64,000 nt of DNA from Acholeplasma hippikon (GCF_900660755.1 NZ_LR215050.1:1364001-1428000), one strand, 5' to 3'. Shown: positions 37,949 through 64,000, counted from the stretch's first letter. Numbers and translations are program-made. The notes: generated by a model from the sequence alone, not told the origin.

Positions 37949-37977
37949 TTGACAGCGCTTTCATTTAGATATATAAT
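37949..37977 (+). promoter_or_regulatory. Consensus promoter of the mannan operon with overlapping cre/LacI-like operator
   Basis: TTGACA (37949-37954), 17-base spacer, TATAAT (37972-37977): a perfect sigma-A promoter. The operator-like sequence TTGACAGCGCTTTCA (37949-37963) matches the cre pattern with one mismatch and covers the -35. A strong promoter blocked at -35 suits tight repression; the LacI regulator encoded at 43418 or a CcpA elsewhere are candidates. Confidence 0.75.
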
Positions 37978-44416: not shown

Positions 44417-44436
44417 AAATTAAAAGGGGATAAGGG

Positions 44437-45318: not shown

Positions 45319-45326
45319 GTGAAGAT

Positions 45327-46169: not shown

Positions 46170-46188
46170 CTTAAAGGGGATAATTAGC

Positions 46189-47154: not shown

Positions 47155-48268
47155 AATATTTAAAATCTTAATAGAAGAAATATATCCTTTTTGGAATCAT
47201 CTATACGATGAACGTGGAGGCTTTTTTGGAGATGTCAAAAATGATGGAACCATTCAGATTAATGCTTCTAAAGGTGCATTACTTCAACTAAGGATATTAT
47301 GGTTTTACAGTAGGTTATACCAAGTCTATCCGAAAGATGAAGTAAAAACATATGCCAAACACGCATATGATTTTGTGAGTAAGTATTTAATAACAAATAA
47401 AGGAACGATTTGGGAAGTTGGATCAGACTTTAAAGTAACTGATGATACAATTCATATATATTACCAAGCATTTACGGTTTACGCGTTAACAACTTATTAT
47501 GAATCATTTAAAGATAAAGAGGCATTAAAAAAAGCTTTAAATACTTTTAAGATTATGGAATCGATGCGTGATGAAAATGGCTATAAAGAGCAATTAAACG
47601 ATGAGAATCGTTTAGCAGACTTAGGTTTTAAAGCTGATAGAACAATGAATTCTATACTACATATTATTGAAGCTTATACGCAACTTTATAAGGTGAGTAA
47701 AGATAAGAAAGTATATGAGGCTTTAATTTTTAATTTAAGATTAGTTGTAGAAAAAATCTTTAATAAAGATGAAGGAAGACTTGAGGTGTTCTTTGATGAA
47801 AAGTTAACATCTTTAGTGGATTATCATTCTTACGGACATGATATTGAAGCCAGTTGGTTACTTGATTTAACACAAGCATTTATTAAAGATAAAAAGTTAA
47901 AAGATGATTTAAAACTTGTGACTAAACAACTTGCCAAAGTTACGTTAAATGAAGGGTTTGATGGAAACTTTTTAATAACTGAAAAAGTATTAGGACATCA
48001 AAGTGAGACCTATGTTTGGTGGCCACAAGCTGAAGCAGTTATTGGATTTGATAGAGCATATGAGGAAACTTATCAAGATTGCTTTAAAGTTGCAAGAGAT
48101 AAAATTTTAGAAAATATATTCGTGTATTTTAAAGATAAAAAAATAAAAGAATGGTATTGGGAATTAACAAAAGATTTTAAACCAGTTTTAAGTAGACCAC
48201 TGGTTTCTAATTGGAAATGTCCTTATCATAATGGCAGAATGTTAATTGAACTACTAAAGGAGATTTAA
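47141..48268 (+). CDS. Cellobiose 2-epimerase-type enzyme (AGE superfamily)
   Basis: The 375-residue (alpha/alpha)6-barrel protein has PFWNHLYDERGGFFGD, KGALLQLRILWFYSRLYQ, HSYGHDIEASWLL and HQSETYVWWPQAEA, matching cellobiose 2-epimerases better than N-acylglucosamine 2-epimerases. In known mannan pathways this enzyme converts beta-1,4-mannobiose to mannosyl-glucose, the substrate of the next gene's product. It starts inside the preceding gene without a clear ribosome binding site, so it is probably translated by coupling. Confidence 0.88.
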   Translation: MQKNEIFKILIEEIYPFWNHLYDERGGFFGDVKNDGTIQINASKGALLQLRILWFYSRLYQVYPKDEVKTYAKHAYDFVSKYLITNKGTIWEVGSDFKVTDDTIHIYYQAFTVYALTTYYESFKDKEALKKALNTFKIMESMRDENGYKEQLNDENRLADLGFKADRTMNSILHIIEAYTQLYKVSKDKKVYEALIFNLRLVVEKIFNKDEGRLEVFFDEKLTSLVDYHSYGHDIEASWLLDLTQAFIKDKKLKDDLKLVTKQLAKVTLNEGFDGNFLITEKVLGHQSETYVWWPQAEAVIGFDRAYEETYQDCFKVARDKILENIFVYFKDKKIKEWYWELTKDFKPVLSRPLVSNWKCPYHNGRMLIELLKEI

Positions 48269-48269
48269 C

Positions 48270-49418
48270 ATGGGGATGTTAAGTAGATTAGAAGTTAAGA
48301 GAAAAAAATTAGTTAGACGTAAAAACAAAGTGGATAAAACTTTTTATAACGGGGTTGTTTCACGTTATAAATACCCAGTACTTACCCATGAACACATACC
48401 TATTTCATGGAGGTTTGATTTAGATCCTAAAACGAATCCCTATGAGATTGAGCGCTTAGGGATAAATGCTGTATTTAATAGTGGAGCAATCTACTTTAAA
48501 GGTGAATTTTATTTAGTACCACGTATTGAAGGGACGGACAGAAAATCATTCTTTGCCTTAGCAAAATCTAAAAGTGGAATTGATAAGTTTGAAATGATTG
48601 AACCGATTATCTTTGATCGAATTGGAGATGAAACCAATCTTTATGACATGAGATTAACAGAACATGAAGATGGATATATTTACGGTATTTTTTGTAGTGA
48701 ATCAATTAATCCGGAAAAACGTGAATTAATGGATGCGGTCGCTAAAGCAGGTATTGTTCGCACGAAGGATTTAAAGACTTGGGAAAGACTTCCAAATTTA
48801 GAAACCAAAAGTCCACAACAAAGAAATGTCATTTTACACCCGGAGTTTGTGAATGGAAAGTATTTATTATATACACGTCCACAAGATGGATTTATTGATG
48901 TAGGTGGTGCAGGTGGTATATCGGCTGGATTTTTAGATTCAATGGAAAAACCAGTAATTGATGAAGAAATTTTAATTGATAGAAGAATTTATCACACGAT
49001 TTATGAAACAAAAAATGGTGGTGGATGTGTACCAATTAAAACAAGATTTGGGTTTATCCATATTGCCCATGGGGTCAGAAATACAGCGGCAGGTCTTCGT
49101 TATGTTTTATACGCATTTATGACAGATTTGAATGACCCATTAAAAGTTACTTATAAACCAAGTGGATACTTCATGGCACCACAAAATGAAGAACGTGTTG
49201 GGGATGTATCGAATGTCTTATTCGCTAATGGAGCGATTTTAAAGGATGATTTAATTTATTTATACTATGCATCATCTGATACGAGATTACATGTTGCAAC
49301 AATTCCAATTGAACGAATGCTTGATTATTTAATAAATAATCCAAAAGAAGCATTTAATACGTATGATTCAACAAAACAAAGAATTGAATTAATAAAAAGA
49401 AATAAAAAGGGGGAGTAA
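48270..49418 (+). CDS. 4-O-beta-D-mannosyl-D-glucose phosphorylase (GH130_1 type)
   Basis: The 382-residue enzyme closely follows the Bacteroides mannosyl-glucose phosphorylase: RYKYPVLTHEHIPISWRFDLD, NPYEIERLGINA, RIEGTDRKSFFALA, YDMRLTEHEDGYIYGIFC with catalytic Asp126, QQRNVILHPEFV, RPQDGFID, HGVRNTAAGLRYVLY and YYASSDTR. It splits mannosyl-glucose with phosphate to mannose-1-phosphate and glucose. AAAGGAG precedes ATG 48270, one base after the epimerase stop. Together with the epimerase it is a signature of mannan use. Confidence 0.92.
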   Translation: MGMLSRLEVKRKKLVRRKNKVDKTFYNGVVSRYKYPVLTHEHIPISWRFDLDPKTNPYEIERLGINAVFNSGAIYFKGEFYLVPRIEGTDRKSFFALAKSKSGIDKFEMIEPIIFDRIGDETNLYDMRLTEHEDGYIYGIFCSESINPEKRELMDAVAKAGIVRTKDLKTWERLPNLETKSPQQRNVILHPEFVNGKYLLYTRPQDGFIDVGGAGGISAGFLDSMEKPVIDEEILIDRRIYHTIYETKNGGGCVPIKTRFGFIHIAHGVRNTAAGLRYVLYAFMTDLNDPLKVTYKPSGYFMAPQNEERVGDVSNVLFANGAILKDDLIYLYYASSDTRLHVATIPIERMLDYLINNPKEAFNTYDSTKQRIELIKRNKKGE

Positions 49419-49422
49419 ATAA

Positions 49423-50736
49423 ATGAAGAAACTTAGTCTAATCATTTTATTATTGGTGTTAGGTTTAGCACTTGTTGCATGTACTGCGCCTACACAAACA
49501 GAAGAACCACCTAAAGATGAAACTGCACCTGTGATTAATGGGGTGAAAACAATTTATCATGAAATTGGTGCGGATGTACCAAATTTCTTACAAGGTGTTT
49601 CAGCATTTGATGAAACAGATGGTAATGTAACCGATAGCTTAGTTGTTGATGCAAGAAACGTCAACTTAGGTAAAGAAGGGTTATATACCATTACGTACTT
49701 TGCTTATGATAAATCAGGAAACCGTGGTAGTAAAGAAGCATCTGTAAATGTATCTGCACCAGATGTTGTTGACTTAACGCAACCAAACTATCCAGCAAAA
49801 GAAGGATTAATTAAAGCAGATATGGGTAGTTATACATCAATTGGTGATGATGAAGCAGAGTTAATTACACTACCTCCATTAATTACAATTGAATATAATG
49901 AAGCAGCATCAACTGATTTAACTTGGCAAACTTATCATGTTTTACAGTTAGCGACAAATAATTATTTAAGAAAGACACACCTAGGATTTAATGTTGTTGG
50001 TGGCGGGGTTTCAATCTATATTAAATTAATGACTTCTGATGGTAAGTTATTAATGGAAAGAGAAGTTGCCTCAACAATGATTTGGAGAGAAGTTGTGATT
50101 GAAATTCCTGAAACACAACGTCATTTATTAAATAAACCACTAGAATTATTTATTTATGCGCCAAGACCAACAGCAACACCACAATCAGGATCAGTATCTG
50201 TTTCTGGTATTTGGTTTGAAGGTGATAAAGAACCAAGTATTAAATTAGAATATGATGAAGTTGATTTTGAAACGGTTTATACTTTAGATATTTCAGATTT
50301 ATCAAACCAATTTGATAGTTTTGATGATGAAGGTAAAGCGGGTAATGGATTAATGACGATTAGTTATCAAGCAGAAACTGGAGTAACTATTCAAAATAAT
50401 GGTTTTAATGATTGGGCAAACGTTGCCTTTAGAGTACCTGATAAAGATTCAGAAGGTGATCCGTTAGTCTTAAATGAAGTAGAATTTGTGGTTATTAAAT
50501 TATCGATTACAAGTGGTGCAATTGTTAAAGCGAAAGCTGATTGGAATTCACCAGACTTATTTGAATTTGATGGAACAAAAGATGGAACTATGCAATATTG
50601 GATGTTACCTGTAGGACCGAATGGCTATCCTGCTTGGGCAGCTGTATCAATCGCAGCAAGTTATTTACAACAAGGAACAAGTAGTGCAACAATCGTCATT
50701 GAAAAGATTATACTTGTTAAAAGTATAGGGCAATGA
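49423..50736 (+). CDS. Lipoprotein with Ig-like (DUF5011-type) and carbohydrate-binding-like domains
   Basis: The 437-residue protein has a lipobox ending LALVAC (Cys20). Residues 30-110 form an Ig-like DUF5011-type domain (DETDGNVTDSLV, GLYTITYFAYDKSGN). Two beta-rich domains follow (about 130-270 and 285-437), each with the jelly-roll style seen in carbohydrate-binding modules, but no exact family is evident. It overlaps the mannanase start by four bases, so it is probably a surface mannan-binding partner. No catalytic motif is visible. Confidence 0.78.
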   Translation: MKKLSLIILLLVLGLALVACTAPTQTEEPPKDETAPVINGVKTIYHEIGADVPNFLQGVSAFDETDGNVTDSLVVDARNVNLGKEGLYTITYFAYDKSGNRGSKEASVNVSAPDVVDLTQPNYPAKEGLIKADMGSYTSIGDDEAELITLPPLITIEYNEAASTDLTWQTYHVLQLATNNYLRKTHLGFNVVGGGVSIYIKLMTSDGKLLMEREVASTMIWREVVIEIPETQRHLLNKPLELFIYAPRPTATPQSGSVSVSGIWFEGDKEPSIKLEYDEVDFETVYTLDISDLSNQFDSFDDEGKAGNGLMTISYQAETGVTIQNNGFNDWANVAFRVPDKDSEGDPLVLNEVEFVVIKLSITSGAIVKAKADWNSPDLFEFDGTKDGTMQYWMLPVGPNGYPAWAAVSIAASYLQQGTSSATIVIEKIILVKSIGQ

Positions 50737-53066
50737 TTGAAAAAGTATTTAGAAAAATAAGTATTGTTATCCTTTTAACCGTATTAACCTTATTATCAAC
50801 AAACATCACCTATGGTGCAATTACTAAAAACACACCATTTGTTGAAGCGAAAAATGGAAAGTTTTATATAAGGGACGATGAATTTAGATTTGTAGGAACA
50901 AATAATTATTATTTACATTATAAAGATAAATTAATGATTGATGCAGTCTTAGATGATGCAAAAGAAGCTGGATTTAATGTGATTCGCATGTGGGGATTCT
51001 TAGATGGAGACTCAAACTCAATTACTGAAAATAAAGCTTATATGCAACCAGAACAAGGTGTTTTTTCAAAGCCATCTTGGGCTGAACATGATTTTGTGAG
51101 TGGCTGGGACCAAATGGATTATGCTATATCAGAAGCTGCAAAAAGAGATATTCGATTAATTATCGTTTTTACAAACTATTGGGATGATTTTGGTGGTATT
51201 AGTGAATATGTTAATTGGTATAATGAAAAATATGGTTATACAAGATTCCATCCAAATTATTTGCATAAAAAAGACTTCTATACAAATGAAGAAGTTAAAT
51301 CTTACTATAAAAATTATGTAAGTTACTTACTAAATAGAACAAATCAGTTTAATGGTAGAAAATATATTGAAGATCCAACCATCTTCTCATGGGAACTAAT
51401 GAATGAACCAAGAAACCCTAAACTAGAAGGTGGAAAAATAGAAGATGTAACCAATTGGGCTGATGAAATGAGTAGATTTGTTAAATCAATCGATCCGAAT
51501 CATATGGTTGCCTTAGGCGATGAAGGTTCATTTGATAAAAGAGCAGATTGGGATTATATGAAACAAGCTCAACACATTTATGATGGTAGTGAAGGTGTTG
51601 ACTTTGAAAAGGTATTAGCACTTGAAAAAATAGATTTTGGAACCTTTCACTTATATCCTGAAAGTTGGGGAATTAATCACTCTCATATGGAGTGGGGTAG
51701 AAAGTTTATTATAGACCACATTAATGTTGGGAAAACTTTAAATAAACCAGTTGTTTTAGAAGAATTTGGGATTAGTGCGAATCTAGGTAGAAATAGAGAA
51801 CTCATTTATACTGACTGGCTAACTGCTGTTTATGAAAATGGTGGTGCTGGGGTAATGTTTTGGATGTATGCTAGCCTAGATACTTCAGATAATGCTGTTG
51901 ATGGAGGATACTATCCAGATTATGATGGGTTTAGATTAGCTGAAATACCAGGTAAGTATAAAGAACTAGATGTCTTAAAAGATTTTGCTAAACGTTTTAG
52001 TGGTGTTGAAGTTCCGTTTGTTGAAAAGATACATGTAATTAGTCCTTATACAACAACTGGATATATTCAAATCGAAAGTGATTTATATGAAAATCAAATG
52101 TATCCAATTCATGTGATTGTAGATACAAAACGAGATGTTAAAAAAGTTGAAATGTATTTAGATGGTGAACTTTATACAACACTTAAATTCAATAAAGATA
52201 CAAATCGTTATGAAACAAACTTTAATATGCGTCATATTTATAGAGGTTCTAACGTTTTCTTAGAATTTAAAGCATATGTTGGTTCAAATGTGATTCTATC
52301 AGAGGCAATTGAAATCAATCGTTTATTAAAATTTGATTACTTTGTGAACGAAAACTATGACTTTAATACACAGTATGGCGGAAATGATGTTCAACTTGTT
52401 TATTATGGTGCATATAATGCAGATTTTTTAAGTTCAACATGGTCAAATAAAAATGGTGGGATGATTAAAGTTTCAGCTAATCATAACCGAGATCACTTCT
52501 GGAGTGAAGTAAAACTCGAAGTGATGAACTTAAATAAACAACTCTTAGTTTCTAGCTATGGTGTTAGTTATGATGTTTATTATGAAAAGAGTAAACTAGT
52601 TGAAGGAATATTAAAACCTACCGATGAAGCATATGATACAGCACCAGGCTTTCGCCATTATGCAGCACTTGACCCAGGTTGGATGAAGATTGGTTTAAAT
52701 GAACATAATATTAAATATTTTAATGTAGAAGAAGTAACGATTGATGGTGTAGTTTATCTTAAACAACATATCATGATTCGTTATAATGCCAATAGTAATC
52801 ATACAAAGTTGGTTTTAGGTTTAGTAACAAACCACTTACTTTATGATGGTGATATCTACATTGATAATCTATCGTTTTATGGTAGAAAACTTTCTGGTGA
52901 TGCGTTAGCTCCGGACGATTATATTGATTGGTATTTAGAGAGAGAAGAACAAAATCGAAAAGATAGACAAAAGAAACTTATCACAACAATCTCAATTGTT
53001 GGTGGAAGTATAGTTGTCTTAGTCGTTCCTGCAGTTATATTCATCATTAAAAAGAAGAAACAATAA
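50733..53066 (+). CDS. Membrane-anchored endo-beta-1,4-mannanase (GH5, GH5_7-like)
   Basis: The 777-residue protein has a signal peptide (1-29), a GH5 barrel (about 35-420) and a C-terminal membrane helix (about 749-772) followed by KKKKQ, so the enzyme faces outside. Catalytic residues are E225 in WELMNEPRN (acid/base) and E344 in VLEEFG (nucleophile). The mannanase-type start YIRDDEFRFVGTNNYYLHY fits GH5_7. Residues about 430-730 contain one or two beta-sandwich modules that may bind mannan. It would cut mannan at the cell surface for import. A strong terminator follows. Confidence 0.9.
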   Translation: MIEKVFRKISIVILLTVLTLLSTNITYGAITKNTPFVEAKNGKFYIRDDEFRFVGTNNYYLHYKDKLMIDAVLDDAKEAGFNVIRMWGFLDGDSNSITENKAYMQPEQGVFSKPSWAEHDFVSGWDQMDYAISEAAKRDIRLIIVFTNYWDDFGGISEYVNWYNEKYGYTRFHPNYLHKKDFYTNEEVKSYYKNYVSYLLNRTNQFNGRKYIEDPTIFSWELMNEPRNPKLEGGKIEDVTNWADEMSRFVKSIDPNHMVALGDEGSFDKRADWDYMKQAQHIYDGSEGVDFEKVLALEKIDFGTFHLYPESWGINHSHMEWGRKFIIDHINVGKTLNKPVVLEEFGISANLGRNRELIYTDWLTAVYENGGAGVMFWMYASLDTSDNAVDGGYYPDYDGFRLAEIPGKYKELDVLKDFAKRFSGVEVPFVEKIHVISPYTTTGYIQIESDLYENQMYPIHVIVDTKRDVKKVEMYLDGELYTTLKFNKDTNRYETNFNMRHIYRGSNVFLEFKAYVGSNVILSEAIEINRLLKFDYFVNENYDFNTQYGGNDVQLVYYGAYNADFLSSTWSNKNGGMIKVSANHNRDHFWSEVKLEVMNLNKQLLVSSYGVSYDVYYEKSKLVEGILKPTDEAYDTAPGFRHYAALDPGWMKIGLNEHNIKYFNVEEVTIDGVVYLKQHIMIRYNANSNHTKLVLGLVTNHLLYDGDIYIDNLSFYGRKLSGDALAPDDYIDWYLEREEQNRKDRQKKLITTISIVGGSIVVLVVPAVIFIIKKKKQ

Positions 53067-53149: not shown

Positions 53150-54058
53150 TTATAATTTAATTGCGTATAGTGCAGCTGCTAGTGCTGGGTCAACTGCAGG
53201 TTTTAAGATTTCAATGTGTTCATTGATACGTTTAATTTTTTTATGTAGTAAGTTTTTAAACTTGCCATCTACATTACCCAAAGAACCTACAATAACAATT
53301 TTTGGATGATGTAATTTTAAACGATGGAAGACTGCTTCAATTGCAAGTGCTAATTCAGATGTGGCACGTTCTACAATGATACTTGCAAATTCATGATCTA
53401 AGTTTGCATACTTTGTCACAAATGGTGCTAGTGATGCAACTTTGGTACGATTGTTGTGAAGTTCATCCATAATGGGGATAATATCGCTTGCTTCACTTAA
53501 ATTAAGTTCAAAAGCGATGTCTTTAGCAAATGAATCCACTTGGTATCTGCCATCAAAACATCTAATCATGTAGCGAATAGCTTCCATACCTAAATGGTAT
53601 CCAGAACCTAATTCACCTTCTTTATAACCCCAGCCACCTGCTTTATGACGATTGTTTTGTTTATCAAGACCGAATGCAACCATTCCGGTTCCACAAATTA
53701 AGCACATACCTTCATCAAAAAGAAGACCTGAGTATAACGCATTATACATATCATTTTCAACTTTAATTTTTGTTTCAGATGTGACACAAGGCAGTTGTTT
53801 TAAGATATCTTTGACTTTTTCTTTATCGTCTTTAAAGACAATCCCACCTAAACCAGCAAAAACGCCAGCAAGTTCAATGTCGTTTTTATCTAAAAATGGT
53901 TTTAAGGATTCATATATGTTTTGATAAGTTAGATAAAGTGGCACCGTATCAATTGATGATGGTCCACCGATACTTTCATAAATGATCTTTTCGTTTTCAT
54001 TGATGATGATGACTTTTGTTTTTGTTCCGCCACCATCAATTCCTAAAAAATATTTCAT
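53150..54058 (-). CDS. BadF/BadG/BcrA/BcrD-family kinase (N-acetylglucosamine-kinase-like)
   Basis: The 302-residue ASKHA-fold ATPase has FLGIDGGGTKTK (phosphate 1 loop), GAGLGG-like AGLGGIVF, IKVENDMYNALYSG (Asp base) and CLICGTGMVAFG, then AGGWGYKEGELGSGYHLG, which are NagK/BadF features. It probably phosphorylates an amino sugar or other imported sugar in the cytoplasm. I chose ATG 54058 because GGTGAT lies four bases upstream; a GTG at 54067 is less well spaced. It is divergent from the GntR regulator and shares its operator region. Confidence 0.87.
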   Translation of the reverse strand: MKYFLGIDGGGTKTKVIIINENEKIIYESIGGPSSIDTVPLYLTYQNIYESLKPFLDKNDIELAGVFAGLGGIVFKDDKEKVKDILKQLPCVTSETKIKVENDMYNALYSGLLFDEGMCLICGTGMVAFGLDKQNNRHKAGGWGYKEGELGSGYHLGMEAIRYMIRCFDGRYQVDSFAKDIAFELNLSEASDIIPIMDELHNNRTKVASLAPFVTKYANLDHEFASIIVERATSELALAIEAVFHRLKLHHPKIVIVGSLGNVDGKFKNLLHKKIKRINEHIEILKPAVDPALAAALYAIKL

Positions 54059-54103
54059 TATAATCACCCAACTCCATTATACCATTTTTATGAATTGTTC
54101 CAT

Positions 54104-54152: not shown

Positions 54153-54878
54153 ATGAAAAAGATAAGTATTGGTCCTTTATATCTTCAAGTGAGAAGTCAC
54201 ATGAAGAGTCGAATTGAATCAGGTGAATGGCCAGAAGGCAGTGTTATTCCTGGGGAAAATGAACTTGCTGAATTTTATAAGGTAAGTCGTGTGACCATGC
54301 GTACAGCCATTAAAGCGTTAGTTGATGATGGTACATTAGTAAGAAAAGCTGGATTTGGTACAACGGTTGCTATGAATAGAAGTTCAATGTCAAACTTCAC
54401 CTTGGTGAGATCATTTACCAATGAGATGAATGAAATGGGTTTACCTAGTAAAACCATGCAAGTTGAACTTCGTATGATTGAAGCAGATGTTATTTTAGCA
54501 AGTATTTTTGGTATTCAACCAGGAGATAAACTCTATAATCTGAGACGTGTAAGAGGTACAGTTGTTCCAATACAATATTGTGATACTTACCTTTTACCAG
54601 TTGTTGAGATTCCAAATGATAAAGAAATACTTACAGGATCGCTTTATGCATTCTTAACCAAACAAAATGTATTCTTTTCTCACTTCGAAGAAGTGGTGAC
54701 TGCTGTAAGAGCACCAAAACCAATTCGTCAAGCGCTTCTCATTTATGATGAATATACACCACAGTTAAAACGTAAAAGATTTAGTTATGATGACCGCAAC
54801 AAATTAATTGAGTATACGGAAACCTTTTATCATACTGAACATTATGAATATCGCACAGAAATTTTTTACCGCAAATAA
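54153..54878 (+). CDS. GntR-family regulator, HutC/UTRA type
   Basis: The 241-residue protein has a GntR winged helix (about 5-72; PLYLQVRSHMKSRIESGEW, GENELAEFYKVSRVTMRTAIKAL) and a UTRA ligand domain (about 95-235; NLRRVRGTVVPIQYCDTYL). UTRA domains sense sugars or sugar phosphates. It is divergent from a sugar kinase and upstream of the propeller/ABC operon, whose promoter carries the same ATGTATT repeat. It is probably the local repressor of both. GAGGTAACGT precedes the ATG. The ligand is unknown. Confidence 0.93.
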   Translation: MKKISIGPLYLQVRSHMKSRIESGEWPEGSVIPGENELAEFYKVSRVTMRTAIKALVDDGTLVRKAGFGTTVAMNRSSMSNFTLVRSFTNEMNEMGLPSKTMQVELRMIEADVILASIFGIQPGDKLYNLRRVRGTVVPIQYCDTYLLPVVEIPNDKEILTGSLYAFLTKQNVFFSHFEEVVTAVRAPKPIRQALLIYDEYTPQLKRKRFSYDDRNKLIEYTETFYHTEHYEYRTEIFYRK

Positions 54879-54896
54879 AAACTTGCGGTTTTTTTA
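54868..54896 (+). terminator. Terminator overlapping the end of the GntR gene
   Basis: ACCGCAA (54868-54874) pairs with TTGCGGT (54883-54889), followed by T's to 54895. The stop codon lies in the loop. Confidence 0.85.
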
Positions 54897-54909: not shown

Positions 54910-54954
54910 ATGTATTAAAAATGTATTGAACAATGTTTTAATATATGATATTAT
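54910..54954 (+). promoter_or_regulatory. Promoter of the propeller/ABC operon with ATGTATT-N4-ATGTATT operator
   Basis: ATGTATT copies at 54910-54916 and 54921-54927 touch the -35 TTGAAC (54926-54931); after a 17-base spacer comes TATTAT (54949-54954). The repeat has the same spacing as the one before the GntR gene, so common control by that regulator is inferred. Confidence 0.6.
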
Positions 54955-54960
54955 TTAATT

Positions 54961-54975
54961 AGAAATCGTTTTCAT
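54961..54975. promoter_or_regulatory. cre-like site at the operon transcription start
   Basis: AGAAATCGTTTTCA follows the cre pattern with one mismatch (A for the T of TG) and lies just after the -10, where catabolite repressors block transcription. Confidence 0.4.
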
Positions 54976-54990
54976 ACGAGGGGGATATCG

Positions 54991-57024
54991 ATGAAAAAAA
55001 TACTTTTCATACTCCTATGCATAAGTGTTTTATTAATTGCTTGTGTAAAAAAGGAAATCGTACTACCGGGAAATGATACATCAAAGTTTACAGAAACCGA
55101 AGATGATAAGTTAATCGTAGAAAGTGTTTTAGCCCCTAACTCCACAATTGATGGTTCGTTAGCAGCTTTTGCACGTTACGAGAAACAACCTAACGAATTT
55201 CCACTTACTTTTAAAGAATCTATTACAAGATTCCATCACCTCGTTTTTGAATTTGATGCAGTTTATCCAGTAAAAGAAATGGTTATCCACAATGAAGATT
55301 TAGTTTATATACATATTGAATATAGTTTTGACAAACAAGGATTTACAAGAATAAAGACAACAGACTTAAATAAAGGAGAAAATAGAATTTCTCTTGATGG
55401 AATAAATGCTTATGCCATACGTTTGGTCTTTCCTGATGATAAAAAATACACCATAAACGATGTTTACTTCACACTTGCCTTAGGCATGATTACTAAACAA
55501 AGAGAAGATTGGTTCAATGCTTTTTATCAACGAAAAGGATGGACAGGAGCGGATGGCATTTTTTCTTTTAACTTAGATGGTACACATCACCTTAATAATG
55601 ATAGTGAAAAACTATTTATTTTCTCAGATACATTTGTTGGTGAATTATATGAAGAAGCTGAATACAGAAAGACGATGGTGATGATTAATAACTCAGTGGG
55701 TTATTTAGATCCTAAAAAACCACTAGGAGAAAACTTGACGTTTTTCTATAAAGAATCTTTATTAGGTGCACCTAAAACTGTTTTTACACCGGAGGCTTAT
55801 CAAGGAAGACAATTAAGAAATCTGCTTGATTATGATGGGTTAAATCCAGGGGCGAGTAAGGATGGTTTATTAGTTAAAGATAGTTTTGGTAAACAATATT
55901 TAACTGAAGGTAATGAAGCAGAGTTTACAATTGACCTTCAAGCAGTAAAAACATTAAGTAGCATCAATATTTGGAACTATAACGATGAAGTAAGTTTTGG
56001 GGCAACGGAAGTAAGTATTTATTTATCTAATGACAACTTAACTTATACATTATTTGAAACAACAACATTAGCGCTTGCATCAGGTTCAAATGAAGAACAA
56101 CTTACAAAATCTATTGAACTTTCAGAAGAAGCTAGATTTGTTAAGTTTTTGATTAAAAATAACGAATCAAAGATTGGATTAGGAAAAATATATATTGAAG
56201 ATCATAACTTAGCACCACTCTTTGGCACTATCTTTGGAAAAGAAGCAGTAACTGAATTAAATGGAGTTGAAAACTCATCAAGACTTTGGCTACAAGATGG
56301 ATTAGTTTTAAACAATAAATTTTATGTATATCCAATTTTAGTTAAAGATGTACCTGGTGCATTTAAAGTTCATTCAGTAAATTTAATTGAAGTACCAATA
56401 GTTAATAACAGATTAGTTTATGAAGAAACAAAATATTTAAATACACCACTACAAGTAAGAACTGATGATGGTGGAGAAATTTTCTATGGTGCAGGCATCA
56501 TGGAACATGTAGATAAAGATGGATATATTTATATTTATGGTTATAAAGACTTAAACGGTAGATTCTTAACGGTTGCTCGCTATAAGCCAGAAGATATTAA
56601 AGATTTTAATAAGTATGAATTCTTTGATGGTGTTTCTTTCCAACGTGATATTAGAAAATCAGCGCCATTAATGAAAGGAGTTTCCGCAGAATTATCCGTA
56701 ACTTACCTTGAAGAAGGTGAAAACAAGGGTAAGTACATGTTAGTTTCGATAGAAAATACCACATCAGGTAGAGTGGTTATAAGTTATAGTGATACACCAT
56801 ATGGACCATTTAGTCCATTTGAAATGATTTATCAAACAACTGAACATACATATTTAGATGCCTTTACCTATAATGCAAAGATGCATCCAAGTATTTCTAA
56901 ACCCGGACGCTATATCATTACATATAACGTCAATTCAACAAATATGAATAGTTTAAGAAATTCACTCATTTATTATCCGAGATTTATAGAATTAATTGAG
57001 GTTAAGAGAAAGGAAGCGAAATGA
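54991..57024 (+). CDS. Surface lipoprotein with beta-propeller glycosidase-like domain and discoidin-like insert
   Basis: The 677-residue protein has a lipobox ending VLLIAC (Cys18). Residues 40-165 form a jelly-roll-like domain. From about 170 a propeller-like domain begins (GADGIFSFNLDG, LFIFSDTFVGEL, MINNSVGYLD), interrupted at about 290-405 by an F5/8-type (discoidin) module (TLSSINIWNY, ARFVKFLIKNNES), and resumes with LWLQDG, DGYIYIYGYKD, KGKYMLVS and YNAKMHPS...ITYNVNS. The pattern resembles DUF4185/DUF5005 proteins, some of which are glycoside hydrolases; I cannot be sure of the exact family. It overlaps its paralogue by an ATGA junction. Probably it binds or cuts a surface glycan. 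Confidence 0.75.
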   Translation: MKKILFILLCISVLLIACVKKEIVLPGNDTSKFTETEDDKLIVESVLAPNSTIDGSLAAFARYEKQPNEFPLTFKESITRFHHLVFEFDAVYPVKEMVIHNEDLVYIHIEYSFDKQGFTRIKTTDLNKGENRISLDGINAYAIRLVFPDDKKYTINDVYFTLALGMITKQREDWFNAFYQRKGWTGADGIFSFNLDGTHHLNNDSEKLFIFSDTFVGELYEEAEYRKTMVMINNSVGYLDPKKPLGENLTFFYKESLLGAPKTVFTPEAYQGRQLRNLLDYDGLNPGASKDGLLVKDSFGKQYLTEGNEAEFTIDLQAVKTLSSINIWNYNDEVSFGATEVSIYLSNDNLTYTLFETTTLALASGSNEEQLTKSIELSEEARFVKFLIKNNESKIGLGKIYIEDHNLAPLFGTIFGKEAVTELNGVENSSRLWLQDGLVLNNKFYVYPILVKDVPGAFKVHSVNLIEVPIVNNRLVYEETKYLNTPLQVRTDDGGEIFYGAGIMEHVDKDGYIYIYGYKDLNGRFLTVARYKPEDIKDFNKYEFFDGVSFQRDIRKSAPLMKGVSAELSVTYLEEGENKGKYMLVSIENTTSGRVVISYSDTPYGPFSPFEMIYQTTEHTYLDAFTYNAKMHPSISKPGRYIITYNVNSTNMNSLRNSLIYYPRFIELIEVKRKEAK

Positions 57025-58793
57025 AACAAGGGGATTTAATTAAAAAGTTAGCACTTAAACAGGGGAATCATACGATTGATTTAGATAGAATTTATCCAAT
57101 TGGTGAAATTAAAGGTGTAACTAGCTATACGCTTTATATAGAAAATAAGAAAAAAACCGATTCAAATTATGCCAATAAAGTCGTTGTAGAACTAGATAAG
57201 GAAACGGAAGTTGAAATTTATTTAGGCTTAGGATATGTTGCCTTAGAAGAACCGACATGGACAAATCAGTTCTTAAGAAGTAATGGATGGAGTGGTGGAG
57301 ACGGTATTTTCTCATTTAATTTAGATACAGGAGAAGATTGTTTCGACCAGGAAAAAGAATCAAATACATTATTTATCTTTGGTGATACGTTTGTTGGGCG
57401 TAGTGATGAAAAATCACATAAACGCTTAGAACCACATTTAATGATTAATAATTCAATTGCTTACTATAAAGATAAAAAACTTAATTTTAAAGTCAATGAA
57501 TTATCGAATGGAAGTATTACTGGATTTTATCATTTAGATCCTAAGTTTGATAAAGTTGGGACAACTGCAGAAGAGTTAATTCGTGATCGATCACAAAAAA
57601 AATTTGGATACTTATCGGGGTATCATCCCAAAGATTTAAAATTAACATTTGATTTCCATAAAGAAAGAACATTTACACATTTAGAAGTAGAAAACTATTT
57701 TAATCCAGATGCTAGCTTTTTATATAAACGAGGCTTTAAAGAAGTAGAAATTTATGGGTCGAATGATTTAAAGACAGAAACACTCATTCAAAGTACAACA
57801 TTTAAACCAAATGAATCTGGTAAAGAAATTCAAAAATTAGAGTTAAAAGGTCAATATAGATACTTAATCTTAAAAGGTATTTCTAACTATAATGATAAAC
57901 AATTTGAAGAAGGTATTTTCGGGTTAAAAAAATTAAGATTTTATAACCATAAACAAGAATATAAAGATATTTATGCAAGTGCATCATCAACATTATTAGA
58001 AGAGGACGAACATTCTTGGATCTGGCTTCAAGATGGTGCAGTTGTTGGGGATACTTTATTCTTCTATCCATTTATTGTCAATAGTGATTTAAATCAGCCT
58101 GAAGGGTTACAGTTTAGAATTGTTGATATTACCCTTTTCCAAACAAAGATTAAAAATGGTAAGTTAGATTTTTCTACAACCAAACAGAAAAAAGCACCAT
58201 TATTAAAAAAACAAGGCTTAACTGAATACATGTTTGGTGCAGGTGTATTTGCTAATACAGCTCAGGCTAATTCATTAAACCCAGATGGCTATATCTATTT
58301 ATATGGATGTAAGACTACATGGGGATTAAGAGAATTAATTGTATCAAGAGTTAAAGCTGAAAACTATGAGTTCTTTGATGATTATGAATTTTATAGTAAT
58401 GGTAAATGGGTAACAGAAATTAGTGAGGCAACAGGTTTATTAGAACATGTTTCAACTGAGTTATCTGTTACTGAAATTAGAGAGGGGCATCTAAAAGGTA
58501 AATACTTATGTGTCTTCACTTATGATGTGAATACACCTGAAGTAGCCTTTAGCGTAGGTGATAGTTTAGTAGGGCCATTTAGTAAACCTCAAACAATTTA
58601 TATTACACCGGAACAATCTATATATAAATCAACAACATACACATATAACGCTAAAGCACATCCACATCTTTCAAAATCGAAAAAAGTTTTAGTAACTTAT
58701 AACACAAATACTTACTCGTTTGACCATAATATGAGTGATTATCGAGTGTATCGACCAAGATTCTTAACACTCAATGACACGGAAAGAGAGTGA
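57021..58793 (+). CDS. Cytoplasmic paralogue of the propeller protein
   Basis: The 590-residue protein lacks any signal peptide or lipobox but shares every propeller motif with the upstream gene: GGDGIFSFNLDTG, LFIFGDTFVGRS, MINNSIAYYKD, WIWLQDGAVVGD, DGYIYLYGCKT, ELSVTEIREGHLKGKYL and YNAKAHPHLS. It also keeps a discoidin-like insert (about 195-310). The short N-terminal domain (1-75) replaces the longer one of the lipoprotein. A secreted/cytoplasmic enzyme pair on either side of an importer would degrade a polymer outside and its fragments inside. Activity is not known. Confidence 0.75.
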   Translation: MKQGDLIKKLALKQGNHTIDLDRIYPIGEIKGVTSYTLYIENKKKTDSNYANKVVVELDKETEVEIYLGLGYVALEEPTWTNQFLRSNGWSGGDGIFSFNLDTGEDCFDQEKESNTLFIFGDTFVGRSDEKSHKRLEPHLMINNSIAYYKDKKLNFKVNELSNGSITGFYHLDPKFDKVGTTAEELIRDRSQKKFGYLSGYHPKDLKLTFDFHKERTFTHLEVENYFNPDASFLYKRGFKEVEIYGSNDLKTETLIQSTTFKPNESGKEIQKLELKGQYRYLILKGISNYNDKQFEEGIFGLKKLRFYNHKQEYKDIYASASSTLLEEDEHSWIWLQDGAVVGDTLFFYPFIVNSDLNQPEGLQFRIVDITLFQTKIKNGKLDFSTTKQKKAPLLKKQGLTEYMFGAGVFANTAQANSLNPDGYIYLYGCKTTWGLRELIVSRVKAENYEFFDDYEFYSNGKWVTEISEATGLLEHVSTELSVTEIREGHLKGKYLCVFTYDVNTPEVAFSVGDSLVGPFSKPQTIYITPEQSIYKSTTYTYNAKAHPHLSKSKKVLVTYNTNTYSFDHNMSDYRVYRPRFLTLNDTERE

Positions 58794-58797
58794 AAAT

Positions 58798-59676
58798 GTG
58801 ACCGATAAAGAAAAAGAAATTATTAAACCTTTTTGGACAAGAAAACGTAAAAGAATGGTTAGTAACACAATATTACATATCATTCTTTCACTAACCGCAA
58901 TCATCTTTGTGTTCCCTTTTATTTGGATGTTATTTACAGCATTAAAAACGCCAGCTGAGTTATTAGCTGGAACGGATTCTTTTTTTCCAACGAATCCACA
59001 ATGGAACAACTTCAAAGATGCAATCGAAAAAATTCCATTTTTCTTATATTTAAAAAATAGCTTAGTGATTGTCGCACTCGTCATGACTGGGACACTTTTC
59101 TCAGCAACCCTAACCGCTTATGCCTTTGCCAAATTAAATTGGAAGGGTAGAGATAAATGGTTCTTAGTGATGTTAGGAACCATGATGATACCAATGCAAG
59201 TCATTCTTATTCCATCATTTATTATGTATGTGCAAATTGGCTGGTTAGGAACCATTTTACCGATGGTAGTTCCTGCGTTCTTCGGTGGCGGAGCCGCATT
59301 CTACATATTCATGCTCCGACAATTCTTTAAGAATATCCCCAAAGACTTGTCGGAGTCTGCGATTATCGATGGTGCCAGCCACTTCAAGATTTTCTGGCAC
59401 ATTATGTTACCTTTATCAAAACCAGCATTGATTACAGTCGCCTTATTCGTATTTATGGCAACTTGGAATGATTATTTTGGACCATTAATTTTCTTAACAG
59501 ATCCAGATCAATGGACCTTAGCTTTAGGCCTACGATCATTTCAAACCCAATATGGTGGGCGTTATGACTTAATGATGGCAGCAAGTATTCTCATTATGAT
59601 GCCAACATTAATTATTTTCTTTGCAGCACAGAAACAATTTATAGAAGGTATTTCATTTACAGGAATAAAAGGATAA
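58798..59676 (+). CDS. ABC sugar transporter permease (MalG/UgpE type)
   Basis: A six-helix permease with the EAA-type loop SESAIIDGASHFKIFWHIMLP and C-terminal AAQKQFIEGISFTGIKG. I prefer GTG 58798 (292 residues), 4 bases after the preceding stop with GGAAAGAG upstream; ATG 58774 would add eight residues but lacks a ribosome binding site. It comes before its binding protein and partner permease, the reverse of the usual order. Confidence 0.92.
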   Translation: MTDKEKEIIKPFWTRKRKRMVSNTILHIILSLTAIIFVFPFIWMLFTALKTPAELLAGTDSFFPTNPQWNNFKDAIEKIPFFLYLKNSLVIVALVMTGTLFSATLTAYAFAKLNWKGRDKWFLVMLGTMMIPMQVILIPSFIMYVQIGWLGTILPMVVPAFFGGGAAFYIFMLRQFFKNIPKDLSESAIIDGASHFKIFWHIMLPLSKPALITVALFVFMATWNDYFGPLIFLTDPDQWTLALGLRSFQTQYGGRYDLMMAASILIMMPTLIIFFAAQKQFIEGISFTGIKG

Positions 59677-59687
59677 AAGGAGGGTCT

Positions 59688-60995
59688 ATGAAAAAGTTAT
59701 TTATATTTATTACGCTCATTCCAATGATCTTTATGTTAGCTAGTTGTAAAGATAAAGATATGGAAGGCAAAGTTGTCATTGATTTTTGGCACATGAGCCC
59801 TGTAGGGTCACCATCTTTTTCACCAATGAAACAAATAATTAATGAATTTAATGATTCACAAGATAAATATTTTGTGAAAGGGACTGGTTTTTCTTTTTGG
59901 GATTACTGGGATAAAATTAGTCTTTCTATTTCAGGTAGAACAGCACCAGACTTAGGGTTATCAACAATTGATGATGTTTATGGTCGTGCAAAGGGTAAAG
60001 TTTTATATAACATCTCTGAGTTAATCGAAAACGATGAATCAGAAAACAACATTGATTTAGATGAATTTAGAGAAAGTCAATTAGAGTTTGCTAGATATGA
60101 AGGTAGTTTATACGCATTACCATTCACTGCAACTGCAAGAGCGCTTTATTATAACTTAGATATCTTAGCTGAAAAAGGATATGACGAAGATGATATTCCT
60201 ACCACTTGGAGTGAATTAAAAGCATTTGCTAAAGAGTTTGATAAAGTTCAAAATGGTGAAATCGTTCGTTTAGGATTTGACCCTACTTATGGTAATGCGA
60301 CTTATCATGGATGGTTATGGCAAACAGGTGAAGACTTCTTTGATGAAGAATTAAATCCAACTTTAAACACAGCAACACATGTGATGGTCTTAAATTGGAT
60401 TAAAAACTTTAACAGTGAGTTTACCAGAGCGCAACTTCAAACATTTGGTGAATCCAATAATATTTTAGGTATTGATCCATTTGCTGCACAAAGAGTTGCG
60501 ATGATTGTGCATGATGATGGTTTAGACCAAAAGATTAAAGATGCTGGCGGTACATTTAGATATTCAGTTGCTCCAATTCCTGTTCCAGATGAAAACGGAA
60601 TACATGTGAACTGGGGAAGTGGATTCTCAATTGAAATGTATGACAACGGTAAGAATGATACTGCAAGAAAAGAAGCAGCATTTGAATTTTTAAAATTCTT
60701 AATGAGTAAAGAAACGCAAATTAAATTAGCAAAAGCGAACGGTTGGTTAATGAGCCATAAATCAGCAATGGTTGAATACACTGCTGATAAACCAATCTTA
60801 AAGAAACTATTAGCAGAAGTTGATTATGCAATGGATAAAGTTTATGTACCATATGCACCAAGCTGGCATGGTAATGATTGGCAACCTTTCTATACACAAG
60901 CATTAGAAGGAACGAAAACTGTTGAACAAGCACTTGCAGATGCAAGAGCACATTATCTACAAAAGAAACAAAACTGGGAAACAACTAACAAATAA
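59688..60995 (+). CDS. ABC sugar-transporter substrate-binding lipoprotein (family 1)
   Basis: The 435-residue protein has a lipobox ending FMLASC (Cys20). Family 1 binding-protein marks include VVIDFWHMSPVGSP, APDLGLSTIDDVY, ARYEGSLYALPFTATARALYYN, AQRVAMIVHDDG and WGSGFSIEM. It would deliver oligosaccharides made by the surface propeller protein to the flanking permeases. AAGGAGGG is a strong ribosome binding site. Confidence 0.92.
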   Translation: MKKLFIFITLIPMIFMLASCKDKDMEGKVVIDFWHMSPVGSPSFSPMKQIINEFNDSQDKYFVKGTGFSFWDYWDKISLSISGRTAPDLGLSTIDDVYGRAKGKVLYNISELIENDESENNIDLDEFRESQLEFARYEGSLYALPFTATARALYYNLDILAEKGYDEDDIPTTWSELKAFAKEFDKVQNGEIVRLGFDPTYGNATYHGWLWQTGEDFFDEELNPTLNTATHVMVLNWIKNFNSEFTRAQLQTFGESNNILGIDPFAAQRVAMIVHDDGLDQKIKDAGGTFRYSVAPIPVPDENGIHVNWGSGFSIEMYDNGKNDTARKEAAFEFLKFLMSKETQIKLAKANGWLMSHKSAMVEYTADKPILKKLLAEVDYAMDKVYVPYAPSWHGNDWQPFYTQALEGTKTVEQALADARAHYLQKKQNWETTNK

Positions 60996-61013: not shown

Positions 61014-61931
61014 ATGCAAAAAGCAGGTTCTTTGAGTAAACTGAAGAAACAAGAAAATCTCATGGGATACTTATTTGCCTTCCCATGGATGTTCGGACTT
61101 ATCGTATTTGGAGCATTCCCAATTTTAGCATCCTTATACATCAGTTTTACTTCTTATGACATGATTGCATCTCCACGATTTATTGGTATAGAAAACTACA
61201 GAATTTTACTATTTAACGATAATATCTTTTGGCAAAGTTTAGGTAATACGATTTATCACGTTGCAATCGCAATTCCATTAGGCATGATTGTTGGGGTTGG
61301 ATTAGCGCTATTACTTAACAATAAACTTAAAGGTATTAGTGTTTATCGTACGTTATTTTATTTACCAAATGTTGTGAGTATTGTAGCAATGTCACTCTTA
61401 TGGCTTTGGTTATTTAATCCAAATTTTGGAATAATTAATGAAGTCTTAAAACCGGTTTATAAATTATTTGGGATGAATCCATTAAGATGGTATGCCGACC
61501 CTGATTTATCTAAGCTAACCTTAATTATTATGGGGTTATGGAGTGCGGGGGGGTCAATGGTTGTCTATCTAGCACAGATGCAAGATATACCAACAGCACT
61601 TTATGAATCGGCAGAAATTGATGGAGCAAACTGGTTTCAAAAAATTAGATATATTACTTTACCATTAATGACACCTTCAATGTTCTTTAACTTCATTATG
61701 GGGATCATTGGTGGGTTCCAAGTTTTCACACTAGCATACATTATGACTGGTGGTGGCCCGAGTCGTTCGACTTATTACTTCGCATACTATTTATATGACT
61801 TAATGATGGCTGACCAAAACATGGGTATGGCATCTGCCATGGCATGGATTTTACTAGTTATCGTATTAGTGTTCACTGCAATAGCCTTGAAACTAAATAA
61901 ATACGTTGTTTATTTAGGGGAAGAAAATTAA
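61014..61931 (+). CDS. ABC sugar transporter permease (MalF/UgpA type)
   Basis: The 305-residue, six-helix protein has FAFPWMFGLIVFGAFPILASLY-type N-terminal wording and the EAA loop YESAEIDGANWFQKIRYITLP, then YIMTGGGPSRSTYYF. It forms the channel with the permease at 58798. No ATPase gene is present in the locus. Confidence 0.93.
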   Translation: MQKAGSLSKLKKQENLMGYLFAFPWMFGLIVFGAFPILASLYISFTSYDMIASPRFIGIENYRILLFNDNIFWQSLGNTIYHVAIAIPLGMIVGVGLALLLNNKLKGISVYRTLFYLPNVVSIVAMSLLWLWLFNPNFGIINEVLKPVYKLFGMNPLRWYADPDLSKLTLIIMGLWSAGGSMVVYLAQMQDIPTALYESAEIDGANWFQKIRYITLPLMTPSMFFNFIMGIIGGFQVFTLAYIMTGGGPSRSTYYFAYYLYDLMMADQNMGMASAMAWILLVIVLVFTAIALKLNKYVVYLGEEN

Positions 61932-61947: not shown

Positions 61948-62799
61948 ATGAAGAAGATTTTATTAGTTATCATCACGCTAGTTTCAGTATTTATGCTGAC
62001 AGCGTGTTGGCCAGCTGAAGTAGGCGTTGAAACGACATTTAACGCTGATGGCTCTGGCACAAGAGTATTTGTGATTGACATCATGGACGATACGTTATCG
62101 CAAACACCAATTATTAACCCTGATGACCCAGAACAAGACGAAGATAAAGGTCCAGTTGTAAATGACAAACACATCAAAGGTGGATTATCAAAAATCCAAG
62201 ATTGGTTAGAAGCTAATGCACCAGATTTTATGACAGTGCATCCAATGACAACAGATGGTGTACATCGCTACTTCAAGATGTCATTTGATTTTACAAGTTT
62301 TGAAGATTTCTTAGCTAAGTATAAACAATTAGTTAATTTATCACCTTCAATTTCTTGGGATGATTTTGATGAAACTGAATTACCTACATTTAAGGTTGAA
62401 GGTAGTGGTTCTATGAAAGACATTACATTCACTGAATCTAAAGTCTTAGTTGAGGCTTCATTAGACTGGGCTGTAGAAGGGATTTATAAAGATTTATATG
62501 ATGCACAAGACTTAGCTGGTTATGTCACTAAAGTTGATATTTGGGTTTTAGCAAACGTTAAAATTCAAGTTGGTGATGGCAAGTTTGAAGAATTAAGACA
62601 TTATGATCCAAATGGTGTTGAAGCTGATGGTAAGACAGGTAAGGTTATCTTTGTTGAATCAGAAAGTTTTACAGCAAAAGGAAAAGGCGAAATTAAATCA
62701 GGTATGAGTACACTTGCTGTGGTTGGTATTACTGCAGGTAGTATCTTAGTTGTTGGTGGCGTTTTAGCCTTCTTCATGTTAAAGAAAAGAAGCGTATAA
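61948..62799 (+). CDS. Unknown lipoprotein with C-terminal membrane helix
   Basis: The 283-residue protein has a lipobox ending VFMLTAC (Cys20) and a C-terminal helix (about 255-278) followed by KKRSV, so it may be held at both ends with the middle outside. The start VGVETTFNADGSGTRVFVIDI resembles DUF3153/LppM-like proteins, but the match is weak. No catalytic motif is seen. It is 16 bases from the permease and 9 bases from the DUF624 gene, so it belongs to the operon. A role in sensing or holding the glycan is only a guess. Confidence 0.7.
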   Translation: MKKILLVIITLVSVFMLTACWPAEVGVETTFNADGSGTRVFVIDIMDDTLSQTPIINPDDPEQDEDKGPVVNDKHIKGGLSKIQDWLEANAPDFMTVHPMTTDGVHRYFKMSFDFTSFEDFLAKYKQLVNLSPSISWDDFDETELPTFKVEGSGSMKDITFTESKVLVEASLDWAVEGIYKDLYDAQDLAGYVTKVDIWVLANVKIQVGDGKFEELRHYDPNGVEADGKTGKVIFVESESFTAKGKGEIKSGMSTLAVVGITAGSILVVGGVLAFFMLKKRSV

Positions 62800-62808
62800 G
62801 GAGTAATT

Positions 62809-63447
62809 ATGGAAAACACCTTAAAAGACTTTTATCGTCAAGTAACTGATGTGATTTATGTACATTTCTTGTGGATATTAACAAGTTTTTTAGGTGTGCT
62901 TATTACCTTTGGTGCTGCAACAACAGCACTATATAAAGTGATTTTCCAAGTATTTAAAAAAGATGAGCCTACACAAGTGACAAAGTTATTCTTTGAAACA
63001 TTTGTAAAAGAATTTAAAGAGTCTACCATTGTGTGGCTCATCTTAATACTGATTGTTACACCACTTATTTTTATGACTTTTTATGCGATTAATCAAACAA
63101 ATTTATTTTTATTAGTTGCATCAATGGTTTGTCTATATCATGTGGTGATGTTATTTACCTATGTATTTCCGATTATTGCAATTTTTAAATCGAATTCAAT
63201 TTTTGAAACCTTAAAAAATACGATACTTATTCAAAACAGACATTTACTAACTAACCTTAAATTAATTGGTAGTTTAGCAATTATTATCTTAGGCATACTA
63301 TATTTACCAAATGTCTTTATTTTAGTCTTAATACCGCTTTATGGTTTTTTAGTTGCATTCCACTTAAAAAATGCATTAAACCCATATGTTGAAAAATTAA
63401 AAACATCTGAATATAAAGGAGACGATTATGAGTTATTTAAACTTTAA
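62809..63447 (+). CDS. YesL/DUF624-family membrane protein
   Basis: The 212-residue protein has about five hydrophobic helices and the DUF624 pattern (ITFGAATTALYKVIF near helix 1, FPIIAIFKSN, NRHLLTNLKLIG). YesL-type genes are frequent in Firmicute polysaccharide-use loci with ABC importers, with unknown function. Its end overlaps the next start by 20 bases. Confidence 0.85.
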   Translation: MENTLKDFYRQVTDVIYVHFLWILTSFLGVLITFGAATTALYKVIFQVFKKDEPTQVTKLFFETFVKEFKESTIVWLILILIVTPLIFMTFYAINQTNLFLLVASMVCLYHVVMLFTYVFPIIAIFKSNSIFETLKNTILIQNRHLLTNLKLIGSLAIIILGILYLPNVFILVLIPLYGFLVAFHLKNALNPYVEKLKTSEYKGDDYELFKL

Positions 63448-64000
63448 ATCTTTATACGATAAAGATCCAAAAATTCACATCACAGATAGTGAAGCATTGT
63501 TTGATAAAAAAGGTTTAGTAGAAGAATTAAAGAACCTAAAAGAAAAAGTTTTAGTCTTTGAAACTTATCCAGGTGTTGATGAAGAAGTATTAAAGAAAGA
63601 TATTTTATTAAAACTTAAACCAACACATTTAATTCATATAGAAGACTATACGAAATCAAGTAAAGAGATAAATGAAATATTAAAATACAACATTACAGAT
63701 GATAGAGTATTTGGCGTTTATTCACATCATACGGTTGATGTTTTTTATGATGAAGAGAAAATAAAATCGCTTAGAGAAGCGATTCATAAGAATGATGGCG
63801 TAACTGTTGTTTATGGATTTGGCGCATCTTTAATCAAAGGATTTTTAATTCATGTTGGATTGACACGTTGGGAAATTCAATTACGTTTCCGTCGTGGATT
63901 AGGTAACTTTAAAGCCAATAATGAAAATGATGATATTTTAAGAAAATATAAACGTGCATTCTTTATTGAATGGCGAATTGCAGACAGAATTAAAGAAACA
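63428..64000 (+). CDS. 5' part of a gene resembling long class I mannose-6-phosphate isomerases; runs off the window
   Basis: The frame opens at ATG 63428 with AAGGAG just before it (63416-63421) and has no stop to base 64000 (191 codons). The start reads MSYLNFKSLYDKDPKIHI. The segment VVYGFGASLIKGF, then TRWEIQLRFRRGLGNF and RAFFIEWRIADRIK, resembles the N-terminal region of the long ManA-type proteins found in sugar-use operons of Bacteroides and Firmicutes. The catalytic isomerase part would lie beyond the window, so the call rests on memory of the family and context (mannose-type sugars). Confidence 0.5.
   Translation, partial: MSYLNFKSLYDKDPKIHITDSEALFDKKGLVEELKNLKEKVLVFETYPGVDEEVLKKDILLKLKPTHLIHIEDYTKSSKEINEILKYNITDDRVFGVYSHHTVDVFYDEEKIKSLREAIHKNDGVTVVYGFGASLIKGFLIHVGLTRWEIQLRFRRGLGNFKANNENDDILRKYKRAFFIEWRIADRIKET

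Follow-up and report, generated by a model that had tools for sequence, protein, structure and literature searches.

Proteins with a DUF4185 domain make up CAZy glycoside hydrolase (GH) family GH183, so far known only for retaining endo-D-arabinanases, and every characterised DUF4185 enzyme is an endo-D-arabinofuranase (PMC10115798, PMC10509167). The nucleophile of EndoMA1 is Asp33 and its acid/base is Asp51, while Glu243 is essential (PMC10509167), and the DUF4185 domain of the GMA6 phage protein has been reported to be active (PMC10115798). Besides GH183, known loci carry exo-enzymes of GH172 and GH116 and genes of D-arabinose metabolism. The D-arabinan locus of Mi. arabinogalactanolyticum encodes outer endo-enzymes, an importer of the ATP-binding cassette (ABC) type that includes an SBP_bac_8 protein, and inner enzymes of GH172 and GH116 that complete the breakdown. 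Two adjacent genes of Acholeplasma hippikon appear from their sequences to be a branch of the same superfamily, remote from the characterised endo-D-arabinanases. They lie in a stretch of 64,000 nucleotides (GCF_900660755.1, NZ_LR215050.1:1364001-1428000; the window) on the plus strand, as do all features given below in the form start..end unless stated otherwise. The first gene (54991..57024) encodes a 677 aa DUF4185 lipoprotein, here the outer protein, and the second (57021..58793) a 590 aa DUF4185 protein that has no signal sequence, the inner protein; both are assigned as GH183-type from Pfam, structural models and fold comparison. We give an even chance to the pair being outer and inner glycosidases that feed a mannose route from a glycan that is perhaps acylated.

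Both open reading frames are present where the first-pass annotation had placed them. The outer protein begins with MKKILFILLCISVLLIAC, in which the lipobox LIAC ends at Cys18, a residue invariant in all 20 aligned outer proteins, and no signal sequence or lipobox was found in the inner protein, which bears out the claim that only the first member of the pair has a lipobox. The two proteins are 32% identical over 584 columns (BLASTP, E 2e-65). From its signal sequence onwards the outer protein consists of an N-terminal domain resembling carbohydrate-binding module family CBM32 (match to NagJ CBM32 2j7m, E 2e-6) and a propeller that contains a discoidin (F5/8C) insert (residues 284-407, 55840..56211). 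The inner propeller holds a discoidin-like insert at residues 183-311 (57567..57953). Pfam F5_F8_type_C matches the outer protein only (43 bits), while profile-profile comparison finds the two inserts homologous (hhalign probability 99, E 6.6e-18) and the inner one also matches the F5/8C domain 3f2z (E 0.01). The earlier description of the pair as copies of one protein sharing a discoidin insert thus holds for the propeller and the insert, and the additional CBM32-like domain of the outer protein means that they are not simple copies. In both proteins the insert is located inside the propeller between the FSDT/FGDT and WLQDG motifs, which are about 220 residues apart in the pair group as against 64-76 in most of the outside relatives with both motifs identifiable; a Cohnella thermotolerans protein likewise has an insert.

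The outer and inner proteins score 53.0 and 49.9 bits against DUF4185 (PF13810), above the curated Pfam cut-off of 39.5 bits, in a match that covers the C-terminal half only (profile 161-297). The first-pass annotation had also suggested a resemblance to DUF5005 (PF16396), which fails: neither protein matches it at E 1, and relatives reach 23.9 and 25.1 bits, below the cut-off of 29.6. Structures predicted with AlphaFold from 20 and 21 relatives (predicted local distance difference test scores of 90.6 for the outer and 92.1 for the inner protein) support the propeller. The nearest solved fold is 4hbs (BACOVA_04882, an uncharacterised putative hydrolase), with Z scores of 33.9 and 32.7 for the outer and inner protein, followed by EndoMA1 with 28.6 and 27.8 over about 300 residues, and then by AraH2, GH159, GH43 and related furanosidase-type propellers near Z 19. 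GH43, GH130, GH117 and the levansucrases have the same fold (Z 17-20) and were considered as nearest relatives, but other proteins lie closer. The profile of the clade is also closer to BACOVA_04882 (E 3e-21) than to EndoMA1 (E 2e-12), although the BACOVA_04882 chain, at 406 residues, is shorter than either protein of the pair. Like EndoMA1, DgGH4185a/b, AraH2/Rv3707c and the GMA6 protein, the pair has a DUF4185 domain, a five-bladed propeller and the Asp/Asp/Glu order; unlike them, it separates the two aspartates by 25-28 residues rather than 18, carries a discoidin insert, includes a cytoplasmic paralogue and has no D-arabinan partner genes. Given this remoteness in sequence, the label 'GH183 endo-D-arabinanase' is not warranted.

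The catalytic trio of GH183 can be followed into both proteins. In the outer protein the presumed nucleophile is Asp188 of the GWTGADG motif (55552..55554, EndoMA1 Asp33), the presumed acid/base is Asp213 of FSDT (55627..55629, EndoMA1 Asp51) and the third residue is Glu567 of AELSV (56689..56691), which a residue-by-residue HMMER alignment to 8hhv equates with Glu243. The corresponding inner residues, presumed nucleophile Asp94 (57300..57302), presumed acid/base Asp122 (57384..57386) and Glu480 (58458..58460), align with them and are also invariant. Sequence-profile alignment did not place EndoMA1 Asp33 and Asp51 on the pair, and the two aspartates were therefore mapped through motif order and spacing with the help of the GMA6 protein (P0003), in which TDLG is followed 18 residues on by FGDTW and then by GELTLR, in the same order as GADG/GGDG, F(S/G)DTF (25-28 residues on) and AELSV/TELSV in the pair. 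The trio is invariant in all 69 aligned proteins from many phyla, as are Trp433, Asp436 and Arg530, with Lys630 and His632 near-invariant. Within the YNAKxHP motif of the pair, Tyr627 and His632 align with EndoMA1 Tyr293 and His298, whereas Lys630 stands in place of EndoMA1 Tyr296, which makes the pocket unlike that of EndoMA1 on its substrate side.

The invariance of the trio in 69 relatives indicates that both proteins are probably working glycosidases, and we hold with high confidence that both have hydrolytic activity. The first-pass annotation had predicted a propeller with paired acidic residues, to be abandoned if these were lacking or if the proteins clearly belonged to a non-enzymatic family; neither is the case, both aspartates and the third glutamate being invariant. 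The two binding-type domains of the outer protein could be read as the mark of non-catalytic glycan-binding proteins, with the inner copy as a leftover, but strict conservation of the trio in both clades and retention of the inner clade in about 20 genomes make this extremely improbable. A match to 6n1b at Z 19.1 suggests that the pair might instead be esterases or deacetylases of carbohydrates built on this propeller, comparable to the F. plautii GalNAc (N-acetylgalactosamine) deacetylase. This match ranks far under 4hbs and EndoMA1 (Z 28-34), and with the GH183 carboxylates invariant and a separate esterase already in the operon such an activity is improbable.

If the pair acts as a glycosidase system, D-arabinan is the substrate that the known enzymes would predict. 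Both proteins would then be endo-D-arabinanases in an operon that feeds on the D-arabinan of mycobacterial or corynebacterial walls or of some lipopolysaccharides or pili; the activity of all characterised DUF4185 enzymes, the conserved trio and the layout of the Mi. arabinogalactanolyticum locus speak for this. The last of these uses GH172 and GH116 inside the cell, however, where the A. hippikon locus has a DUF4185 paralogue, and searches of the A. hippikon genome for GH172, GH116 and a fucose/D-arabinose isomerase (FucI-type) found none. Among 23 genomes with pair-type proteins, three have GH172 and two have clear isomerases of FucI length. The hint of D-arabinan in the first-pass annotation was downgraded after these searches and, as the clade is also nearer to BACOVA_04882 than to EndoMA1 and the genes of the operon indicate a hexose, we regard D-arabinan as a doubtful substrate.

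The operon continues from the pair with an ABC sugar permease of the MalG type (58774..59676, NCBIfam), an SBP_bac_8 solute-binding lipoprotein (59688..60995, Pfam 94.8 bits), a MalF/UgpA-type permease (61014..61931, NCBIfam), a lipoprotein that has no Pfam match above cut-off and is conserved in 18 loci (61948..62799), a DUF624/MusI membrane protein of the YesL type (62809..63447, Pfam 55.7 bits) and a 570-aa phosphomannose-isomerase-like (PMI-like) protein whose 5' part occupies 63428..64000. The rest of the last gene runs past the window (L080:429-2141), followed by a GDSL esterase (L080:2138-2845) and a true ManA (L080:2842-3834). The window copy of the PMI-like protein has no Pfam match, and its family is assigned from a marginal match of a relative, zinc-ligand motifs and the GenBank name of a relative; about 230 aa at its N terminus make up a domain of no recognised kind, and the QVHP, DExYY and GTxH motifs are kept in all 16 full-length proteins checked. 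Upstream of the pair are a GntR/UTRA regulator (54153..54878, Pfam) and, divergent on the minus strand, a BadF/BcrAD-type sugar kinase (53150..54067, PF01869 102 bits). The YesL and ManA-like proteins named by the first-pass annotation are both present. The kinase it called NagK-like is a BadF/BcrAD-family protein, but it scores 90 bits against the NagK model, far below the cut-off of 370, and was rejected as a GlcNAc (N-acetylglucosamine) kinase. The block conserved among relatives runs GntR (or AraC and GH38), outer, inner, permease, solute-binding protein, permease, lipoprotein, DUF624, PMI-like and GDSL esterase, with ManA and a BadF-type kinase nearby.

Gene content points to mannose. A full-length PMI-like protein occurs in 20 of the 23 genomes that encode DUF4185 proteins of this kind and in none of 14 that do not (Fisher p 1e-7), and GH38 in 10 of 23 as against 0 of 14 (Fisher p 0.006), by tests that ignore kinship between genomes. 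The sole type I PMI of the A. hippikon genome lies in the pair operon, and none was found in six same-genus genomes that lack the pair. Two other relatives with the pair have PMI but no GH130, from which it follows that PMI accompanies the pair and not the beta-mannan locus that adjoins the operon in A. hippikon. In other phyla, relatives of the pair adjoin alpha-mannosidases (GH38, GH92), a PMI-like protein, ROK kinases and O-acetylesterases. The loci with GH38 or GH92 as a neighbour come from Cohnella, Robinsoniella, Clostridiales, Litoribacter and Cesiribacter; GH92 was found in none of 37 Mollicutes genomes and is a partner only outside this class. The Bacteroidota loci repeat an order of ROK, PMI-like, major facilitator superfamily (MFS) transporter, often GH92, DUF4185, acetylesterase and DUF4185, as in the SusC/SusD locus on a Hymenobacter DG25B plasmid (ROK, mannose-6-phosphate isomerase, MFS, DUF4185, sialate O-acetylesterase, DUF4185), where the two DUF4185 proteins are the sole annotated glycosidase candidates, an arrangement that hints at cleavage by these two proteins. 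These loci resemble that of A. hippikon in having two DUF4185 paralogues, a kinase, a PMI-like protein and an esterase; they differ in that uptake is by SusCD/MFS rather than an ABC transporter, GH92 is added in some, and in several both paralogues have a lipobox and are apparently exported. Literature searches turned up no work that connects DUF4185 with a mannosidase.

Several observations weigh against mannose. The linkage rests on gene neighbourhood, with GH38, GH92 or a PMI-like protein within about 10 kb in 16 of 44 non-mollicute loci, and the Fisher tests bear the limit given above. GH38 and GH92 were searched for in the A. hippikon genome and not found, though ManA is present. In a Paenibacillus branch the neighbours are GH42 and other genes; taken as a whole, the branch is therefore not linked to a single sugar. 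On the enzyme side, the Asp33 and Asp51 equivalents were assigned by motif rather than by superposition. The PMI-like proteins could also act on another aldose phosphate, and the pair would then be GH183-type glycosidases for a non-mannose glycan, with kinase and PMI-like protein using a different aldose. The extra N-terminal domain of the PMI-like protein, its identity of only about 30% to ManA over the C-terminal part and a GH106-like gene in Robinsoniella are in line with this, as is the Litoribacter locus, which is followed at L142:12122-16616 by SDR, MR_MLE, SGL and a 2,4-didehydro-3-deoxy-L-rhamnonate hydrolase-like gene, a deoxyhexose-type oxidative pathway of the fucose/rhamnose kind. 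Against it stand the true ManA in the same operon and the alpha-mannosidases of many relatives, and we rate a non-mannose glycan as unlikely, if less so than D-arabinan. On balance we lean slightly towards a substrate that contains mannose.

A route for such a substrate may be proposed. The outer protein, anchored in the membrane and equipped with two glycan-binding-type domains, would cut the glycan at the cell surface, and the pieces would be imported by the ABC transporter. The inner paralogue, which has the same active-site carboxylates, would cleave them further in the cytoplasm, both enzymes presumably acting as retaining glycoside hydrolases. The esterase would take off acyl groups, the BadF-type kinase would phosphorylate the freed sugar, most likely mannose, and ManA would turn the product into fructose-6-phosphate. 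We consider the relay between outer and inner enzyme probable. The first-pass annotation had the pair flank the importer functionally, and the layout of outer enzyme, importer and inner enzyme agrees with this; physically, both genes lie upstream of the importer.

It had also described the two genes as translationally coupled. They do overlap by 4 nt in an ATGA start/stop sequence (57021..57024), but the overlap is not conserved among relatives: A. hippikon has a gap of -4 nt, most Acholeplasmataceae-like loci have one of -1 to +22 and Izemoplasma-like loci one of 128-209 nt, and any coupling is a local detail only. What is conserved is adjacency and order, with outer followed by inner in about 20 loci including this one. 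Pair-type DUF4185 matches occur in 20 of 395 genomes of the class, and carriers include Peloplasma aerotolerans, Tenericutes bacterium MO-XQ, Mycoplasmatota zrk7 and Izimaplasma ZiA1. The outer and inner clades are each monophyletic (Shimodaira-Hasegawa-like approximate likelihood ratio test 100 and 99), which implies an old duplication kept intact. Support for where the outer clade sits with respect to the inner one is 65%, and it is therefore no more than likely that the discoidin insert was gained once. Some genomes hold a third, shorter DUF4185 paralogue that lacks the N-terminal domain and the insert (L065:11243-12463, L062:3112-4095, L072:4681-5751, L073:8874-9938), which adjoins the pair in three of these four loci. 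URO-D family (PF01208) proteins recur beside DUF4185 in Clostridiales and Robinsoniella (L116, L117, L122, L127), with GH38 adjoining in three of the four, and possibly transfer methyl groups from methylated sugars.

Between the GntR gene and the outer gene there are a terminator-like hairpin (54868..54889, from a consensus scan in a region where hairpins are no more numerous than in shuffled sequence), a predicted promoter-like TTGAAC-N17-TATTAT with a TG extension (54926..54954, consensus match only) and a predicted cre-like catabolite-repression site, AGAAATCGTTTTCA (54961..54974), the pattern of which matches three times in the window against 0.56 expected. A near-palindromic cre-like site, TGACAGCGCTTTCA (37950-37963), precedes by about 80 bases a 1304-aa DUF4886 protein (38044-41958). 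The beta-mannan locus beside the operon (43418-53066) comprises LacI, two permeases, two GH130 phosphorylases, a GlcNAc/mannobiose-type 2-epimerase, an immunoglobulin-like lipoprotein and a GH5-type enzyme with CBM27; it is missing from sister genomes, and in six same-genus genomes GH130 either is not found or scores below the cut-off. Downstream of the operon, L080:8713-18549 holds a cluster of repeated small secreted proteins, which by eye resemble TasA/camelysin-type surface proteins, accompanied by an AAA-type protein and by signal-peptidase-like genes.

More tentatively, the clade may constitute a new subfamily of GH183, or else a separate new family alongside it, whose members cut mannose-containing and probably O-acylated glycans; wall-less bacteria would use an outer protein and a cytoplasmic paralogue for this, and Bacteroidota two paralogues that are both exported. 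Peloplasma aerotolerans, a relative in culture that has the operon (L083) and uses D-mannose for growth (PMC11122141), makes the idea testable. Work on mycobacterial D-arabinan gave the DUF4185 proteins their name. If a broad branch of the family does act on mannose glycans, its automatic annotation as endo-D-arabinanase would be wrong, and a function would become available for a locus type so far unassigned in environmental Mollicutes, Bacteroidota and Bacillota.

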